Positions 6,473 to 28,576 of a stretch of 34,883 bases of DNA are shown piece after piece. A program made the translations under genes and the position numbers. The stretch is from the IMG/VR virus record IMGVR_UViG_3300037041_000128, positions 1 to 34,883 of that record; one strand, given 5' to 3'. The notes below the pieces were generated by a model. The model saw only the letters and a program-made list of their open reading frames with translations, was not told where the DNA came from and did no database searches. Source of the stretch: a virus. Position 1 is the first letter of the stretch; each line of letters begins with the position of its first letter.

Positions 6473-7474
6473 ATGGCTCTTATAGTCAAGGATAGGGTAC
6501 AGGAAACATCGGCTACTACCGGCACAGGTACTTTTACGCTTGCTGGTGCTGTTAGTGGGTTTCAGTCATTCTCCTCTGCAATAGGAAACGGAAACACAAC
6601 TTACTACACGATAGTAAACGGTTCTGAATGGGAGATAGGGATAGGGACTGTTGGTGCTGGTACTTTATCTAGGGACATAGTGCTAGATTCTTCTACAGGC
6701 TCTGCCATATCGTTTACTTCTGGCACTAAAGCTGTATTTGTTACATACCCAGCAGGGAAATCTGTAACTACTGATGGCGCACAAACTCTTACAAACAAAA
6801 CTTTAACAAGTCCAACATTAAGCACACCATCACTTGGTACTCCGGCTAGTGGAACTTTAACTAATTGTACTGGCTTACCTAATGCTGGTTTAGTAAATAG
6901 TGCTATCACTATAAATGGAACTTCTGTTAGTTTAGGTGGCTCAATCTCCACATCAGCCTTTCCATCTGGCGGTATTATTATATGGTCTGGTTCAGCAGCG
7001 TCTATTCCAGTTGGTTGGTTGCTATGTGATGGTACAAGTAGCACTCCAGATTTAAGGGATAGGTTTGTAGTAGGTGCAGGATCAACTTATGCAGTAGGTG
7101 CAACTGGCGGTAGTGCTAATGCTACATTGGTAAGCCATACCCATACTGGTACATCGTCATTTACTGGTTCTGCTCTAGGTACACATACCCATACAGCGAC
7201 TTCTACAGTAACTGACCCTGGTCACTTCCATAACTTGCCAGGTAACACGTCATCAGGTTCTATTCGCCAAACACAAATTGGTGTGAATGCTACTTCAGTT
7301 CTTGCAACGTCATCTACAAAAGTAACTGGGATTACAGTAGGAACGACAAACAGCTCTGAATCAGCAGGTACACCAGCAGGTAGCGTATCAACATCTATTA
7401 GTACAGAAGGTTCAAGTGCTACTAATGCCAACCTACCTCCGTACTACGCTCTTTGCTACATTATGAAGTCTTAA
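6473..7474 (+). CDS. Tail fibre with phage collar domain 1
   Basis: A 333-aa fibre protein. The N-terminus (1-100) is a small beta domain (MALIVKDRVQETSATTGTG). A Ser/Thr-rich link with 'TLTNKTLTSPTLSTPSLGTP' follows, then a collar domain from about residue 166 (GGIIIWSGSAASIPVGWLLC, DLRDRFVVGAG) and a His-rich C-terminus with repeated HTHT and GHFH, ending NLPPYYALCYIMKS. The HxH clusters are typical of metal-binding trimeric fibre tips such as T4 gp12, which carry iron. It would bind host receptors. It shares near-identical DNA with the second collar gene at 8736-9461. Confidence 0.85.
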   Translation: MALIVKDRVQETSATTGTGTFTLAGAVSGFQSFSSAIGNGNTTYYTIVNGSEWEIGIGTVGAGTLSRDIVLDSSTGSAISFTSGTKAVFVTYPAGKSVTTDGAQTLTNKTLTSPTLSTPSLGTPASGTLTNCTGLPNAGLVNSAITINGTSVSLGGSISTSAFPSGGIIIWSGSAASIPVGWLLCDGTSSTPDLRDRFVVGAGSTYAVGATGGSANATLVSHTHTGTSSFTGSALGTHTHTATSTVTDPGHFHNLPGNTSSGSIRQTQIGVNATSVLATSSTKVTGITVGTTNSSESAGTPAGSVSTSISTEGSSATNANLPPYYALCYIMKS

Positions 7475-9461: not shown

Positions 9462-10891
9462 TGGCTACTCAGCGCATAACATTTACAGAGTGGACTCCAG
9501 ACTTAGCTGGTGTAGCTGAGAACTTGTCTATTGCACAAAACGTAGTGCCAACTGCACTAGGTTATAACCCATTCCCATTGGCTGTAGATTATTCTGCTGC
9601 TGCTAGTGAAAACCTTAATAACGTATTTGCTGGTAAGTTTAGCTCAACTACAACTGTATTTGCTGGTGGTGCTACTAAGCTATTTAAGTTTGATGGCGCA
9701 GACTTGAGTATGGATAACGTGTCAAAGACTGGCAACTATAGTGGTATTGTTAAATGGAATTTTACTCAATTTGGTAACACTATTATTGCAGCCAATAACG
9801 TCAATAAACTACAGGCATACACGCTAGGCTCAAGCTCTACATTTGATGACTTGAGTGCCGATGCACCTGTCGCTGAGTACGTGACTGTTGTTCGTGACTT
9901 TGTGGTAGCTTCTAGTTTAGATTCTGGTAGCAATTCAAACAAGGTTCAATGGTCTAACATCAATGACGAAACAAACTGGACTACTGGCTCTGCATCACAG
10001 TCTGACTACCAAATAATTAGCGATGGTGGCAACATTCATGGCATGACTGGTGGTGAGGTTGGTCTTATATTCCTAGACCGTGCTATCGTGCGTATGTCTT
10101 ACATTGGATCACCTCTATTCTTCCAGTTTGACACGATTAGTCGTGGTGTAGGTTGCGTAGAAGGTAACACCGTAGTTCAATACGGTAGCATGACTTACTT
10201 CTTAGGTGCAGATGGCTTCTATTCATGTGATGGCACAACCGTTACAGCTATCGGTACACAAAAGGTAGATGCATGGTTCTATGCTAATGCCAACCCATCT
10301 AAACTAAATTTAATGTCATCAACCATTGACCAGATTCGTAAGATTGTTGTGTGGGCATTCATTGATAACTTTGCACAAAATACTTTGCTTATCTACAACT
10401 GGCAAGTTCAAAAGTGGTCTTACTGCACAACTGACGTTGATGTAGTGGCATCATCAGCATCTGCTGGTATGACGCTTGAAGGCTTAGACCTATACGGCAA
10501 CATGGACACATTGACTACCTCACTAGATGACGCATTGTGGTCTGGTGGTAAGTTCTTATTTGCTGGTGCTAGAGATGATAAGATAGTTACCTTTACTGGT
10601 GCAAACTCTGTTGCAGAACTAACTACAGGCGATATAGGAAGCGAAGCTACTTCAGTAATTACACTTGCTAGACCAGTAGTAGATAATGGCTCTGGTAGCG
10701 TAGCAATTGCTTCTAGGATGCTTCTTAATGAAGTGCCACAGTTAGGTTCATACACATCAGCAGACACAGAAAATAGGGTATCATTACGGAGTGCTGGTAA
10801 GTATCATAGACTATCAGTAAAACCAACTGGTGATCGCTGGTCTAATGTAATTGGTGTTGATATTGATATTACCCCACAAGGAACTAGATAA
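9461..10891 (+). CDS. Tail nozzle / DNA stabilization protein (P22 gp10-like)
   Basis: A 476-aa protein starting at ATG 9461, which overlaps the previous stop; an upstream ATG at 9443 lies inside the fibre gene. It begins MATQRITFTEWTPDLAGV and has a beta-propeller pattern, with repeated short blocks such as VFAGGATKLFKFDG and VRDFVVASSLDSG, and the diagnostic 'SNINDETNWTTGSASQSDYQ' and 'YFLGADGFYSCDG'. Length (P22 gp10: 472 aa) and these motifs fit the nozzle that extends the tail channel and retains packaged DNA. It follows the fibres and precedes ejection proteins. Confidence 0.85.
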   Translation: MATQRITFTEWTPDLAGVAENLSIAQNVVPTALGYNPFPLAVDYSAAASENLNNVFAGKFSSTTTVFAGGATKLFKFDGADLSMDNVSKTGNYSGIVKWNFTQFGNTIIAANNVNKLQAYTLGSSSTFDDLSADAPVAEYVTVVRDFVVASSLDSGSNSNKVQWSNINDETNWTTGSASQSDYQIISDGGNIHGMTGGEVGLIFLDRAIVRMSYIGSPLFFQFDTISRGVGCVEGNTVVQYGSMTYFLGADGFYSCDGTTVTAIGTQKVDAWFYANANPSKLNLMSSTIDQIRKIVVWAFIDNFAQNTLLIYNWQVQKWSYCTTDVDVVASSASAGMTLEGLDLYGNMDTLTTSLDDALWSGGKFLFAGARDDKIVTFTGANSVAELTTGDIGSEATSVITLARPVVDNGSGSVAIASRMLLNEVPQLGSYTSADTENRVSLRSAGKYHRLSVKPTGDRWSNVIGVDIDITPQGTR

Positions 10892-12720: not shown

Positions 12721-13389
12721 ATGGGTTATCCTGCATTGATTGGTGCTGCTATTGGTGCTGCACAAGCTGGTATTCGTGGTAAAAACGTATTAAAAGGTGC
12801 TGCCATTGGCGGTGCAATAGGGGCAACTGGTGGTGCTGCAATGGGAGCAATGGGTGCTGGTGCTGCTGCTGCTGGGGCTGGTACTGCTGCTGGTACGGCT
12901 GGAGCTACTGGAGCTACTGCTGGTGGTCTTTTAGGTGGGGCTGGGGCTGGGATTACTAGCGCAGGTGCAAGTGGAGCTACTGCTACTGGTGGTCTTTTAG
13001 GGGGAAGTGCATTACCATCATTTTCTGGCATGGGCTTACCATCTATTGCTGAAGGCGGTAGTGCTATGGGGGCATTAGATGCTGGTGCTGCTAGTGCAGG
13101 AACTACTGGTTTATCTAACTCATTAATACCTACAATGAATTTAGCTAATTCAACTGGTGCAGCTTCTTCATCAATGATGGATATGCTGAAACAATATGGA
13201 ACTGTTGATAACCTTAAAGGTGCTATGGCAGTAGCTAATATGGCTCAGCCACAGCAACAACCTACTATTCAAGGTGGTGGTAGTGTTAAAGTTGGTCAAG
13301 CACCTACTGGTGATATATATGATGAATTGCGTAAGGTAGGTTATACTTTGCCTAAACGCAGAGAAACAAATTTTAGCTTGTTAGGATAA
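12721..13389 (+). CDS. Gly/Ala-rich ejection protein 2
   Basis: A 222-aa protein, strongly Gly/Ala-rich in its first 130 residues with glycine-zipper runs (GAAIGGAIGATGGAAMGAMG) and conserved repeats of 'GATAGGLLGG'. It lacks a signal peptide. The C-terminus is soluble, with QPQQQPTIQGGGS and ends in RRETNFSLLG. Glycine-zipper proteins of this kind are usual in podovirus ejection sets and can insert into membranes. It starts 1 bp after the preceding stop. The high GC of this stretch comes from Gly/Ala codons and need not mean foreign origin. Confidence 0.72.
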   Translation: MGYPALIGAAIGAAQAGIRGKNVLKGAAIGGAIGATGGAAMGAMGAGAAAAGAGTAAGTAGATGATAGGLLGGAGAGITSAGASGATATGGLLGGSALPSFSGMGLPSIAEGGSAMGALDAGAASAGTTGLSNSLIPTMNLANSTGAASSSMMDMLKQYGTVDNLKGAMAVANMAQPQQQPTIQGGGSVKVGQAPTGDIYDELRKVGYTLPKRRETNFSLLG

Positions 13390-23774: not shown

Positions 23775-24069
23775 TTGAGTACCCCATTGCTTTATTTTCT
23801 TCAGCTAGTGCTACTGCATTTGCTGCATTTTGTTCTGGGGTGAATTGACTTGCTATTTTTATAATATCTTCAAGATCAATCTTAGATTTAAGGCTCTTGA
23901 TAACATCTTTTATTGATTGTGCGTCTAGGGTAGGAAGAAGGTTTACTACATTAGCAACTTCTTCAACTGCGATAATTTCAATGTCATTTACATCGTTGTA
24001 GTAAACATCAAAATCTTTACCTCTGAGCAATTCGTTTTGACTGTAAATTTTTACTGTTTTCAATTTCAT
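23767..24069 (-). CDS. First gene of the minus-strand early operon, hypothetical
   Basis: A 100-aa protein starting MKLKTVKIYSQNELLRGKDF. GGAG stands 7 nt before ATG 24069; a GTG 12 nt upstream (24081) lies inside that ribosome site. The middle, DIEIIAVEEVANVVNLLPTL, is hydrophobic beta, and the C-terminal half is helical (IKSLKSKIDLEDIIKIASQF). I do not recognise it. It is transcribed from the promoter at 24123-24151. Confidence 0.62.
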   Translation of the reverse strand: MKLKTVKIYSQNELLRGKDFDVYYNDVNDIEIIAVEEVANVVNLLPTLDAQSIKDVIKSLKSKIDLEDIIKIASQFTPEQNAANAVALAEENKAMGYSND

Positions 24070-24097
24070 TTTAATCTCCACCGTTTCTATTAAGTTA

Positions 24098-24117
24098 ATC
24101 GCATAATTTGCTGCGAT
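24098..24117. promoter_or_regulatory. Operator-like dyad at the early minus promoter
   Basis: ATCGCA (24098-24103) and TGCGAT (24112-24117) form a perfect dyad with an 8-bp centre. It overlaps the expected transcription start (about 24115) of the minus promoter. It could be a repressor site or a 5' hairpin of the transcript. Confidence 0.45.
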
Positions 24118-24122
24118 GTGTA

Positions 24123-24151
24123 ATAATACTTCATGTAATTTAATAATGCAA
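24123..24151 (-). promoter_or_regulatory. Early minus-strand sigma70 promoter
   Basis: On the minus strand TTGCAT (24151-24146), a 17-bp spacer and TATTAT (24128-24123). Both boxes are close to consensus. It would start near 24115 and drive the whole minus early operon down to 19116. Confidence 0.65.
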
Positions 24152-24178
24152 GCATTATTTCTACATTTATTTAAAATA

Positions 24179-24207
24179 ATTTAATCTATTTAAGTTTACG
24201 GTATAAT
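24179..24207 (+). promoter_or_regulatory. Early plus-strand promoter with perfect -10
   Basis: TATAAT at 24202-24207; the -35 at 17-bp spacing is ATTTAA (24179-24184), which is poor, so activation or other DNA contacts may be needed. The start would fall near 24213, exactly where the structured leader RNA begins. Confidence 0.5.
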
Positions 24208-24211
24208 TACT

Positions 24212-24303
24212 TGTCGGTTGCTGGAGAGCAGGTAAGTTAAAGGTGCTTATTCCACCTGATTGCCGACACACTCACTCAAAGTTGAATAAGGACATATCAT
24301 ATG
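24212..24303 (+). ncRNA. Structured leader RNA with loop complementary to the SD
   Basis: The leader can form a three-way junction: P1 TGTCGG (24212-24217) with CCGACA (24263-24268); P2 TGCT (24219-24222) with AGCA (24227-24230), loop GGAG; P3 AGGTG (24241-24245) with CACCT (24253-24257). The P3 loop is exactly CTTATTC (24246-24252) and is a perfect 7-nt complement of GAATAAG (24284-24290), which holds most of the AAGGA ribosome site before ATG 24301. Pairing would block translation of the HNH gene. This is the architecture of a translational riboswitch or RNA-regulated switch, but no known class was recognised. It is seen only as pairing potential. Confidence 0.5.
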
Positions 24304-25002
24304 CCAATCTATAAAAAATGTATTACTTGTGATAATGAATTTAAAGTTCCGCCATGCAGACATAAGGCTTTATATTGTTCTCAAAAATGTATGCCAAAAG
24401 GTGGTAAAGATAATCCAAATTGGAAGGGCGGTTTAATTAAAACATTATGTAAACAATGTAATGTAGAGTTAAATTTAAAGAAAAAAGATATATTAGAAAG
24501 TGGTAATTTTTGCAGTAGAAGTTGTAGTGCTATATTTAACAGTAAAGTAATGGCTATAAAAGCAAATGAAAATAGAATAAAAAAATATTGCAAAGTCTGT
24601 TCAACACTTATTTTAATAAAAAAATCACATGAGCATACAGAAGGCACTTGTTGTTCTAGAAAATGTTATGCAATTTATATGACCACGTCTTTATTAGGTA
24701 AAGAAAATCCAAATTACAAACATGGCAATGCTCATATTAACAATTGGTATGTTGGAAAAAGAAAAGAAGCAACAGGATCATATCCAAAAGATTACTATAA
24801 AACTTTATTAACATTGCAAAATAATCAATGTATTGTTTGTAAAAATAAACTTATTAAATACCATTTAGATCATATTATGCCTATTGCTTTGGGCGGAACA
24901 AATGATTATAAAAACATACAATTGCTTTGTCCTACTTGTAACCATCAAAAACACGCTAAAAATCCAATAGATTTTATGCAAGAAAAAGGATATTTATTAT
25001 GA
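24301..25002 (+). CDS. Multi-zinc-ribbon HNH endonuclease
   Basis: A 233-aa protein with three successive Cys4-type ribbons (C7/C10...C26/C30; C50/C53...C71/C75; C97/C100...C118/C122) and a C-terminal HNH domain: C177-x2-C180, H188-L-D-H191, LGGTNDYKNIQLLCPTCN (C210, C213) and H218. The ribbons probably recognise DNA and the HNH domain cuts. The gene is AT-rich, notably more so than its neighbours, as expected of a mobile homing-type gene. It directly follows the structured leader and overlaps the VRR-NUC gene by ATGA. It may be an invader that has taken over the early promoter and leader. Confidence 0.85.
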   Translation: MPIYKKCITCDNEFKVPPCRHKALYCSQKCMPKGGKDNPNWKGGLIKTLCKQCNVELNLKKKDILESGNFCSRSCSAIFNSKVMAIKANENRIKKYCKVCSTLILIKKSHEHTEGTCCSRKCYAIYMTTSLLGKENPNYKHGNAHINNWYVGKRKEATGSYPKDYYKTLLTLQNNQCIVCKNKLIKYHLDHIMPIALGGTNDYKNIQLLCPTCNHQKHAKNPIDFMQEKGYLL

Positions 25003-25355
25003 TTAAATTAAGTGAGTATCAAGAGCAATGCTTATTAATAGATTGGTATCGTCTGCAATACAAGCAATACAAGTATCACTTATTTTCAATTCCTAATGGC
25101 GAATATAGACATATTGCTACTGCCGTTAAACTTAAACGATCTGGAGTGCTTGCTGGAGTGTCTGACCTTTTTTTAATGATTCCTAAAAATGGCTATCACG
25201 GTTTGTGGCTTGAGATGAAGGCAAAGACAGGCAACGTATCAGATAGCCAGAAAGAGTTTATGTCTAACGCTAGTGAGATGAACTATGCAACAGTTGTTTG
25301 CTACGGATTTGAGGAAGCTAAAAAAGAAATTAATAATTACTTGCATGATTTTTAA
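24999..25355 (+). CDS. VRR-NUC domain nuclease
   Basis: A 118-aa protein: SEYQEQCLLIDWYRLQY, FSIPNGEYRHIATAVKLKRS, GVLAGVSDLFLMIP, HGLWLEMKAKTGNVSDSQKE. The pattern D-(x)n-E-x-K (D147-like D in GVSDLF, E and K in LEMKAK) is the VRR-NUC variant of the PD-(D/E)XK fold. Stand-alone phage VRR-NUCs can act as Holliday junction resolvases or other structure-specific nucleases. Its start overlaps the HNH stop. It is probably involved in recombination or replication intermediate cleavage. Confidence 0.88.
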   Translation: MIKLSEYQEQCLLIDWYRLQYKQYKYHLFSIPNGEYRHIATAVKLKRSGVLAGVSDLFLMIPKNGYHGLWLEMKAKTGNVSDSQKEFMSNASEMNYATVVCYGFEEAKKEINNYLHDF

Positions 25356-27724: not shown

Positions 27725-27965
27725 AAAAGCATACTTTAATCGTGTAGCAGAGTTAGGGTGCATCATCTGTCGTATGCCAGCAGAGATACACCACCTACGA
27801 ACAGGGGCTGGGCTAGGAATGAAGAGCAAAGACGTAATACCTCTATGTCCACATCATCATAGGACAGGAAATCATGGTGAGGCGATCCATGCAGGAAGGT
27901 TAGCATTTGAAGCCAATTTTGGCACAGAGTTAGAGTTACTAGAAAAATTGAAAGGTTTGTTATGA
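27711..27965 (+). CDS. Ref-like RecA-dependent HNH nuclease
   Basis: An 84-aa protein starting ATG 27711 (MSKTEKAYFNRVAELGCIIC); a TTG at 27702 would add three residues. AEIHHLRTGAGLGMKSKDVI and PLCPHHHRTGNHGEAIHAGR and FEANFGTELELLEKL are the Ref / RecA-dependent nuclease HNH motif. P1 Ref cuts D-loops formed by RecA. This short version lacks the disordered N-terminus of P1 Ref. It overlaps NinB by 14 bp, as in many lambda-like recombination clusters. Confidence 0.84.
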   Translation: MSKTEKAYFNRVAELGCIICRMPAEIHHLRTGAGLGMKSKDVIPLCPHHHRTGNHGEAIHAGRLAFEANFGTELELLEKLKGLL

Positions 27966-28576
27966 GTAGTAATGGGATTTATTTTGCAACTACCAAAAGG
28001 AAATGGATTGCTCAATGTAGGGTAAATGGAAAGATCAAGCAAATTGGATCATATGACTCACCAGAGGAAGCAGGTATGGCTTATGTTGTATTTAAGCAAA
28101 ATGTAAAACGTGAGCCTACTGCCAATGACTATGCACGATTGGCTAGATATAAATCTTACTGCGAGTTCTGCAAAACACCTCGCACCATTTCAGAGATGTT
28201 TGCTAACTACCCTAAATCAAATACTGGATCTGTACGACACGTTTCAGACACTCTGGTAGAGCAAGGATTCATCCAAAAAACAATTCAAAATTCAAAGGTA
28301 AATGCTAAAGATAAATATGTTTATGTAACCATAAAAGATTTTAAAGACTCAGATCTTAAGCCTATGGGCAGAGGTCAGATTCAGAAACTTAAATTTGACT
28401 CAACTGGCATTGCTGTTGAATTAGTAGAGCCAACAATTGAGGGTGCTAGGGTAATTAATTTTGATAGAGCAGACCTTAAAGAAAAATATAATCAACAACG
28501 TCACTTAGATAGGTTAGCAATGAAGTCACCTAAAAATTATATAAGTGGATCAACAATGTCAGGGAGTGATTGGTAA
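27962..28576 (+). CDS. AP2-domain plus winged-helix regulator candidate
   Basis: A 204-aa protein. Residues 1-45 resemble an AP2/ERF-type DNA-binding domain (GIYFATTKRKWIAQCRVNGK, then IGSYDSPEEAGMAYVVF). Residues 65-115 look like a winged helix (RTISEMFANYPKSNTGSVRH, VSDTLVEQGFIQKT). The rest is basic and less ordered. It is the penultimate early gene, ending 250 bp before the early/late boundary promoter, so it is a candidate late activator or antitermination factor; this is inference from fold and position only. It starts by ATGA overlap with the Ref-like gene. Confidence 0.65.
   Translation: MSSNGIYFATTKRKWIAQCRVNGKIKQIGSYDSPEEAGMAYVVFKQNVKREPTANDYARLARYKSYCEFCKTPRTISEMFANYPKSNTGSVRHVSDTLVEQGFIQKTIQNSKVNAKDKYVYVTIKDFKDSDLKPMGRGQIQKLKFDSTGIAVELVEPTIEGARVINFDRADLKEKYNQQRHLDRLAMKSPKNYISGSTMSGSDW

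Follow-up and report, generated by a model that had tools for sequence, protein, structure and literature searches.

Genomic context of the leader

The window, i.e., the whole stretch of DNA analyzed here (34,883 nucleotides), is a 34.9-kb fragment of a phage genome from IMG/VR. Its leftward genes include SSB, Gp157, ERF and an exonuclease, and its rightward genes start with an HNH gene and a VRR-NUC gene, followed by a replication protein. A structured leader is located in the divergent region immediately before the HNH gene (Table 1). By its portal protein, the window is closest to groundwater phages from Manatee Spring that are uncultured (60.8%), followed by the Methylophilales phage Venkman (54.6%), and from this similarity we take a relative of Methylotenera as the probable host.

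Promoter, leader and HNH gene form a cassette of 817 bp inserted before VRR-NUC. In near relatives the site is empty and VRR-NUC comes directly after AAAATAATT. L003 matches positions 24067-24181 and 25020-25349 of the window with nothing in between, L003/L004 match 24081-24181 at 87%, and the phages closest by VRR-NUC (85% identity) carry neither the leader nor the HNH gene. The HNH gene is thus an insertion missing from close relatives, as is characteristic of free-standing homing endonucleases, and judging from the sequence it appears to be a free-standing homing-type gene controlled by the leader. Since the two reading frames overlap at ATGA, VRR-NUC is probably translationally coupled to HNH after the insertion. 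The target had been described as an HNH/VRR-NUC operon, which has to be qualified, as the inserted cassette merely precedes VRR-NUC and many further genes are served by leaders of this family. In L150 promoter and leader are placed identically before a VRR-NUC gene, but an HNH_3/AP2 gene replaces the HNH gene of the window. A second possible mobile DNA-binding gene, with a weak AP2 match (E 3e-4) and without a leader, is found at positions 27962-28576.

Table 1. Positions of the leader elements, the promoter and the adjoining genes in the window
Feature	Position	Strand	Remarks
Inserted cassette (promoter, structured leader and HNH gene)	24182-24998	+	absent from near relatives
-10 box TATAAT	24202-24207	+	4 nt lie between the box and P1
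P1, 5′ strand UGUCGGU	24212-24218	+	pairs first described: 24212-24217/24263-24268
P2 hairpin, stem UGCU/AGCA	24219-24230	+	stem 24219-24222/24227-24230; invariant GGAG loop 24223-24226
J2/3 junction GGUAAG	24231-24236	+	in the family [GC]G[CU]AA[GC]
P3 hairpin	24237-24261	+	five canonical pairs (24241-24245/24253-24257); up to nine in relatives
P3 loop CUUAUUC	24246-24252	+	5′ strand of the pseudoknot
P1, 3′ strand GCCGACA	24262-24268	+	
Single-stranded tail ACUCACUCA	24270-24278	+	invariant (also a search criterion)
GAAUAAG	24284-24290	+	3′ strand of the pseudoknot; overlaps the SD AAGGA (24288-24292) of ATG 24301
HNH endonuclease, free-standing homing-type	24301-25002	+	Pfam HNH 1.1e-11, HNH_5
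VRR-NUC gene	24999-25355	+	start codon overlaps the HNH stop codon (ATGA)

Fold of the leader and promoter

The preliminary description had proposed a three-way junction of P1, P2 and P3 whose P3 loop is complementary to the ribosome site. All of these pairs are present, P1 even gaining a seventh pair (U24218-G24262), and RNAfold gives exactly this fold as minimum free energy and as centroid structure. The exact complementarity of the loop was likewise verified in the sequence. Throughout the family described below, P1 with 7 bp, P2 with 4 bp and P3 with 5-9 bp are arranged around the junction; P1 directly adjoins both P2 and P3 (0 nt each), and 6 nt separate P2 from P3. P3 comprises nine Watson-Crick or wobble pairs in some members; in others, the window among them, five pairs are accompanied by an internal part rich in purines. 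With z values of -1.41 (61 nt) and +0.27 (101 nt) the folding energy is unremarkable, and the stability of the leader is no argument for its reality. The loop-SD match is unusual: when the leader was shuffled with its dinucleotide composition kept, 1 of 20,000 sequences had a stem of at least five pairs closing a 7-nt loop whose entire length is complementary to a site near the start.

The leader had also been said to begin at the predicted transcription start. The TATAAT promoter is indeed there, but P1, whose first base is the fifth after the box, lies slightly upstream of the expected start, so that the transcript would begin at about the second or third base of P1, which fits the weak outermost pair of this helix (see below). 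No -35 consensus is recognizable at the promoter of the window. In most members the leader starts 4-5 nt behind the box; a perfect TATAAT is present in the searched stretch of 33 of the 49 family leaders compared, nearly always 4-6 nt before P1. A -35 element shared by these 49 leaders was not found, some members only having a -35 box. In the 50 nt upstream, most family leaders show a near-perfect TATAAT with neither a recognizable -35 box nor a TGn extension. Upstream of one leader, which belongs to the antirepressor gene of L316, a tRNA gene ends about 25 nt before P1 (L316:4835-4909).

A family of leaders

Searches with a 24-nt core yielded 20 contigs, a gapped pattern 36 viral contigs plus two real loci in bacterial bins, and a second pattern with a relaxed P2 stem 58 contigs. 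The two DNA patterns combined detect the leader in 61 IMG/VR contigs, and it is also present in two metagenome-assembled bacterial genomes (L182 and L199). Because the search patterns demanded GGAG, GYAA or ACTCACTCA, the invariance of these elements is partly selected. By an independent, protein-first route, 80 loci collected by HNH_3/AP2 similarity gave six leaders. Three of these (L224, L226 and L255), absent from the first alignment, have the same fold with different P2 stems and new pseudoknot sequences, and the tail ACUCACUCA is seen in them independently. The protein-derived members, few as they are, lend independent support to the invariance of the core. With model R1 the window leader reached 99.7 bits and with model R2 it reached 97 bits (E 1.9e-28), the window being part of the training set; L224, L226 and L255, which are outside the training set of R1, scored 79.9, 69.0 and 32.2. 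The window has every feature that defines the new family, namely the P1-P2-P3 junction, GGAG, GYAA, the ACUCACUCA tail and the loop-SD pseudoknot.

Most of the 35 pattern matches in genome contigs were discarded as chance matches, having no flanking P1 and no -10 box and often lying within genes; only L182 and L199 are real leaders. A further candidate (G410/L331, 23.9 bits) was rejected as it lies inside a coding gene and has no P3; by reading, this gene codes for an RsmE-like methyltransferase. Six of the loci (L186, L189, L195, L200, L206 and L211) are a chance match in a near-identical stretch of one Planctomycetia genome (CP054190.1), which is repeated at least six times and looks like a multicopy mobile gene.

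Covariation and conserved core

Two alignments of 27 and of 49 distinct leaders were evaluated. The larger one was fitted to P1-P3 and hence favors these helices; as the pseudoknot was not part of the model, its count is free of this bias. With 27 leaders 88.2% of the cells are paired (pseudoknot 96.2%), and all measures lie above those of 500 out of 500 shuffles. With 49 leaders 89.3% of the cells are paired as compared to 68.4% in shuffled alignments, and two-sided changes occur in 24 of 27 pairs, a number reached by none of 500 shuffles. None of the 500 shuffles attained the observed value in any of the five measures, and structures slid by 1-3 columns drop to 34-49%.

All helices contribute to this result. 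In the larger alignment P1 is paired to 96.2% (two-sided changes in 5 of 7 pairs), P2 to 99.0% (4 of 4), P3 to 75.3% (9 of 9) and the pseudoknot helix to 95.0% (6 of 7). The sole weak pair of P1 is the outermost one, which is unpaired in 11 of the 49 leaders. The stems of P2 include GCU/AGC, GGA/UCC, GCA/UGC, GCG/CGC, GGU/ACC, GUA/UAC, GCC/GGC, GGG/CCC and CCA/UGG, always around GGAG. The preliminary description would have been contradicted by homologues breaking these pairs without compensation; on the contrary, the structure survives the comparison in both alignments with strong covariation. We regard it as confirmed that the RNA shape is real and evolutionarily conserved, the decisive evidence being comparative.

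The helices vary freely around a conserved core of about 17 unpaired nucleotides. Invariant are the GGAG loop, the GYAA junction and the ACUCACUCA tail, an invariance which, as explained, is partly search-selected. GGAG and the CUC of the tail, both invariant, could possibly form a long-range pairing of 3 bp. The complement of the tail, TGAGTGAGT, is absent from the + strand of the window, where ACTCACTCA is confined to the leader; no second site in the window phage can therefore pair with the tail.

Pairing of the loop with the ribosome site

When 21 distinct loops are compared with their own ribosome sites, the mean complementary run is 6.33 nt. Permuting the partners gives 3.66 nt (sd 0.23, maximum 4.62), and none of 2000 permutations reaches the observed value. 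Examples of matching loops and SD regions are CUUAUUC/GAAUAAG (window), CUUGUAC/GUACAAG, CCCUUUU/AAAAGGG, CUUUCAU/AUGAAAG and CCGAUA/UAUCGG. One contig (L152) contains three leaders on the minus strand (12756-12847, 10583-10675 and 6995-7087), each before a different HNH_3 gene, and their loops CTTATAC, CTTATTC and CCCTTTT each fit their own SD. Three leaders with three codes in one contig indicate that the pairing acts in cis, and they make it less likely that another RNA is the switch, as had been considered initially. Most of the SD is covered by the pseudoknot. For the helix of loop and SD, -4.0 to -6.8 kcal/mol are predicted, similar to the SD:anti-SD helix (-5.2 to -5.9), and the loop can therefore compete with the ribosome as expected for a poised switch.

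Two other kinds of leader were noticed in front of endonuclease genes. An HNH_3 gene (L249:1406-1500) is preceded by a different leader after a TATAAT, with a P2-like GGG/CCC, a P3 CCAUG/CAUGG and a loop CUAAUU complementary to AAUUAG near the start; it lacks the GGAG loop and the ACUCACUCA tail and may be another type of leader working by the same principle. Two related endonuclease genes (L231:1376-1500 and L257:1044-1151) have a common leader after a TATAAT with a P1 of UGUGGC/GCCACA, in which the hairpin loop CUUAAGCA is complementary to UGCUUAAG close to the start, so that another loop-start pseudoknot is possible.

Downstream genes and distribution

Most members of the family precede HNH_3 proteins, often with an AP2 domain. 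HNH/HNH_5 proteins are encoded downstream in the window, L162 and L170, another HNH type in L172, a helicase in L163/L199, an antirepressor with Rha and KilAC domains in L316, and a ParB-like protein in L296. Resolvase-like proteins follow in L295, L297 and L305, where the leader has a GC content of 63-64%, and proteins of unknown function in L293 and, a small one, in L307. In a phylogeny of 105 HNH_3 proteins the distribution of the leader requires at least 16 gains or losses versus 26.9 after shuffling, from which we conclude that the leader has in part been passed on along with the gene and in part been exchanged.

Five leader queries found no match among the nucleotide sequences of named phages and plasmids, and the named phages with the nearest portals (Venkman and three Manatee Spring phages) have no real copy. 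Among 150 genomes of the family, 399 of the order and 369 of the class to which the Methylotenera bin belongs, a true copy is present only in that bin, where it adjoins the same kind of endonuclease. As far as searched, the leader family is an element of uncultured, mostly environmental phages.

Proposed mechanism and alternative explanations

The fold, the pseudoknot, its specificity in cis, the conserved core, the placement behind the -10 box and the spread over unrelated genes can all be read from the sequences. We consider it very probable that they represent a new riboswitch-like family of cis-acting, translation-controlling RNA leaders which is not contained in Rfam. In our model the P3 loop pairs through 6-7 nt with the SD region about 15 nt downstream. 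With the pseudoknot formed the 30S subunit would be excluded and the gene off or expressed at a low level, and with the pseudoknot open the gene would be translated. The GGAG loop, the GYAA junction and the ACUCACUCA tail would constitute a recognition core that binds a factor, either a small molecule as in a riboswitch or a conserved host or phage protein, and thereby sets the balance. In three-way junctions with J3/1 shorter than J2/3, P3 bends towards P1. As J1/2 and J3/1 measure 0 nt and J2/3 6 nt, P1 and P2 probably stack and P3 probably bends towards P1, which would bring the loop to the tail. The purpose could be to delay or limit the expression of harmful genes such as homing endonucleases. 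Repression by the pseudoknot and binding of a factor by the core are what we infer from the arrangement; translation may also be enhanced by pseudoknots close to an SD, and the conserved core could be structural only.

As to the nature of the factor, a quite plausible reading, although we would not yet call it the probable one, is an operator for a conserved host protein (ribosomal or CsrA/RsmA-like) or for a protein of the phage, which would attach to the GGAG loop and the ACUCACUCA tail and stabilize or open the pseudoknot. An invariant single-stranded GGAG on a freely varying stem together with an invariant single-stranded tail are typical protein sites, the ribosomal protein S15 and other autoregulators recognize junctions and pseudoknots, and functionally unrelated genes are served here as by a global regulator. 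However, no cellular copies were found in the 150, 399 and 369 genomes of the host group that could link the leader to a host operon. For CsrA in particular the loop is suggestive but the context is poor: good CsrA sites have an ANGGA context, whereas here the GGA is placed in a fully paired tetraloop without it.

The factor may also be a small molecule, and a riboswitch of an undescribed class, in which junction and tail bind a metabolite that changes upon infection and lock or unlock the loop-SD pseudoknot, is a reading that we hold open with some reserve. The anatomy resembles that of translational riboswitches, with about 17 unpaired core nucleotides and freely varying helices, and a riboswitch is already known from methylophages (Melnitz, PMC9004378). 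On the other hand, the leader matches no riboswitch of Rfam, it was not found upstream of cellular genes, and the downstream genes are non-metabolic and share no pathway that would point to a ligand. With similar reserve, one may think of a phage-specific riboswitch class which responds to the condition of the infected cell and thereby gates the translation of selfish endonucleases and of some regulators of the phage, the portable module of TATAAT, aptamer and gene-specific loop-SD code being refitted to each gene by co-evolution of loop and SD.

It is unlikely that the leader senses nothing and only lowers or delays the translation of harmful genes as a constitutive attenuator. Most downstream genes do code for homing-type endonucleases, RBS hairpins restrain the translation of such enzymes in T4-type phages (PMC2988022), and leader and gene travel together as a cassette, but a simple SD hairpin would suffice for this task, the invariant GGAG, junction and tail would be unneeded, and non-endonuclease genes use the leader as well. 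A chance structure or a homing or recombination signal at the DNA level, compatible as it is with the ordinary folding energy and the lack of the leader in near relatives of the window phage, is extremely improbable and was rejected, since the compensatory changes in all four helices and the matching of each loop to its own SD are constraints at the RNA level and the leader also precedes non-endonuclease genes.

To our knowledge few phage genes are under the control of structured aptamer-like leaders, and those described mostly belong to borrowed cellular classes. The family presented here appears to be phage-specific and portable between unrelated genes, and its conserved core implies the recognition of a ligand or protein. 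Knowing this partner would open a direct way to learn how selfish endonucleases and certain regulators of the phage are timed. Being modular and present in three versions in a single contig, the loop-SD code is moreover a natural example of orthogonal translational control.

Comparison with known systems

The preliminary description could not place the leader in a known class, and our searches agree: the window and six diverse relatives have no match in Rfam 15 at the gathering score, only two chance matches far below the cut-off appear at E up to 10, and no description was found in the open literature. Translational riboswitches with loop-SD pseudoknots include preQ1-I/II/III, SAM-II and SAM-V. 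Like these, the leader has a compact aptamer-like fold, a loop pairing with the SD region, which is thereby part of a pseudoknot, and a conserved unpaired core with variable helices. Unlike them, it has no metabolic target genes and is, as far as searched, restricted to phages, and neither sequence nor covariance-model searches detected the consensus sequence and fold of preQ1, SAM-II and similar riboswitches.

Leader operators of ribosomal proteins, such as that of S15 on the rpsO mRNA, exert translational control through the bound protein. As on the rpsO mRNA, a three-way junction and a pseudoknot are found at the ribosome site; in contrast to S15-type operators there is no ribosomal-protein gene downstream and no Rfam match.

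The methylophage Melnitz carries a glutamine (glnA) riboswitch (PMC9004378), another structured regulatory RNA in a phage of the Methylophilales, the host group suggested here. The Melnitz riboswitch, however, is a known Rfam class, shared with cyanobacteria and linked to a tmRNA gene (PMC9004378), and our leader does not match it.

Finally, RBS-sequestering RNA structures have been described for I-TevI, I-TevII, I-TevIII and segB of phage T4 and for mobE of the Aeromonas phage Aeh1, and sequestration delays the translation of the T4 endonucleases and of mobE (PMC2988022). The likeness is a structured leader over the ribosome-binding site of a phage homing-type endonuclease gene, which holds for the HNH gene of the window and for most, not all, members. 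In T4 and Aeh1 the structures are plain hairpins of long transcripts that come from upstream, and a short late transcript escapes them (PMC2988022). Here the SD is not hidden in a simple read-through stem and set free in a short transcript but pairs with a hairpin loop, and since P1 starts 4-5 nt after the -10 box it is the short transcript that carries the fold. In contrast to the T4 and Aeh1 structures, the leader thus combines its own promoter with a three-way junction, a loop-SD pseudoknot and an invariant core, and it recurs across unrelated endonucleases and other genes.
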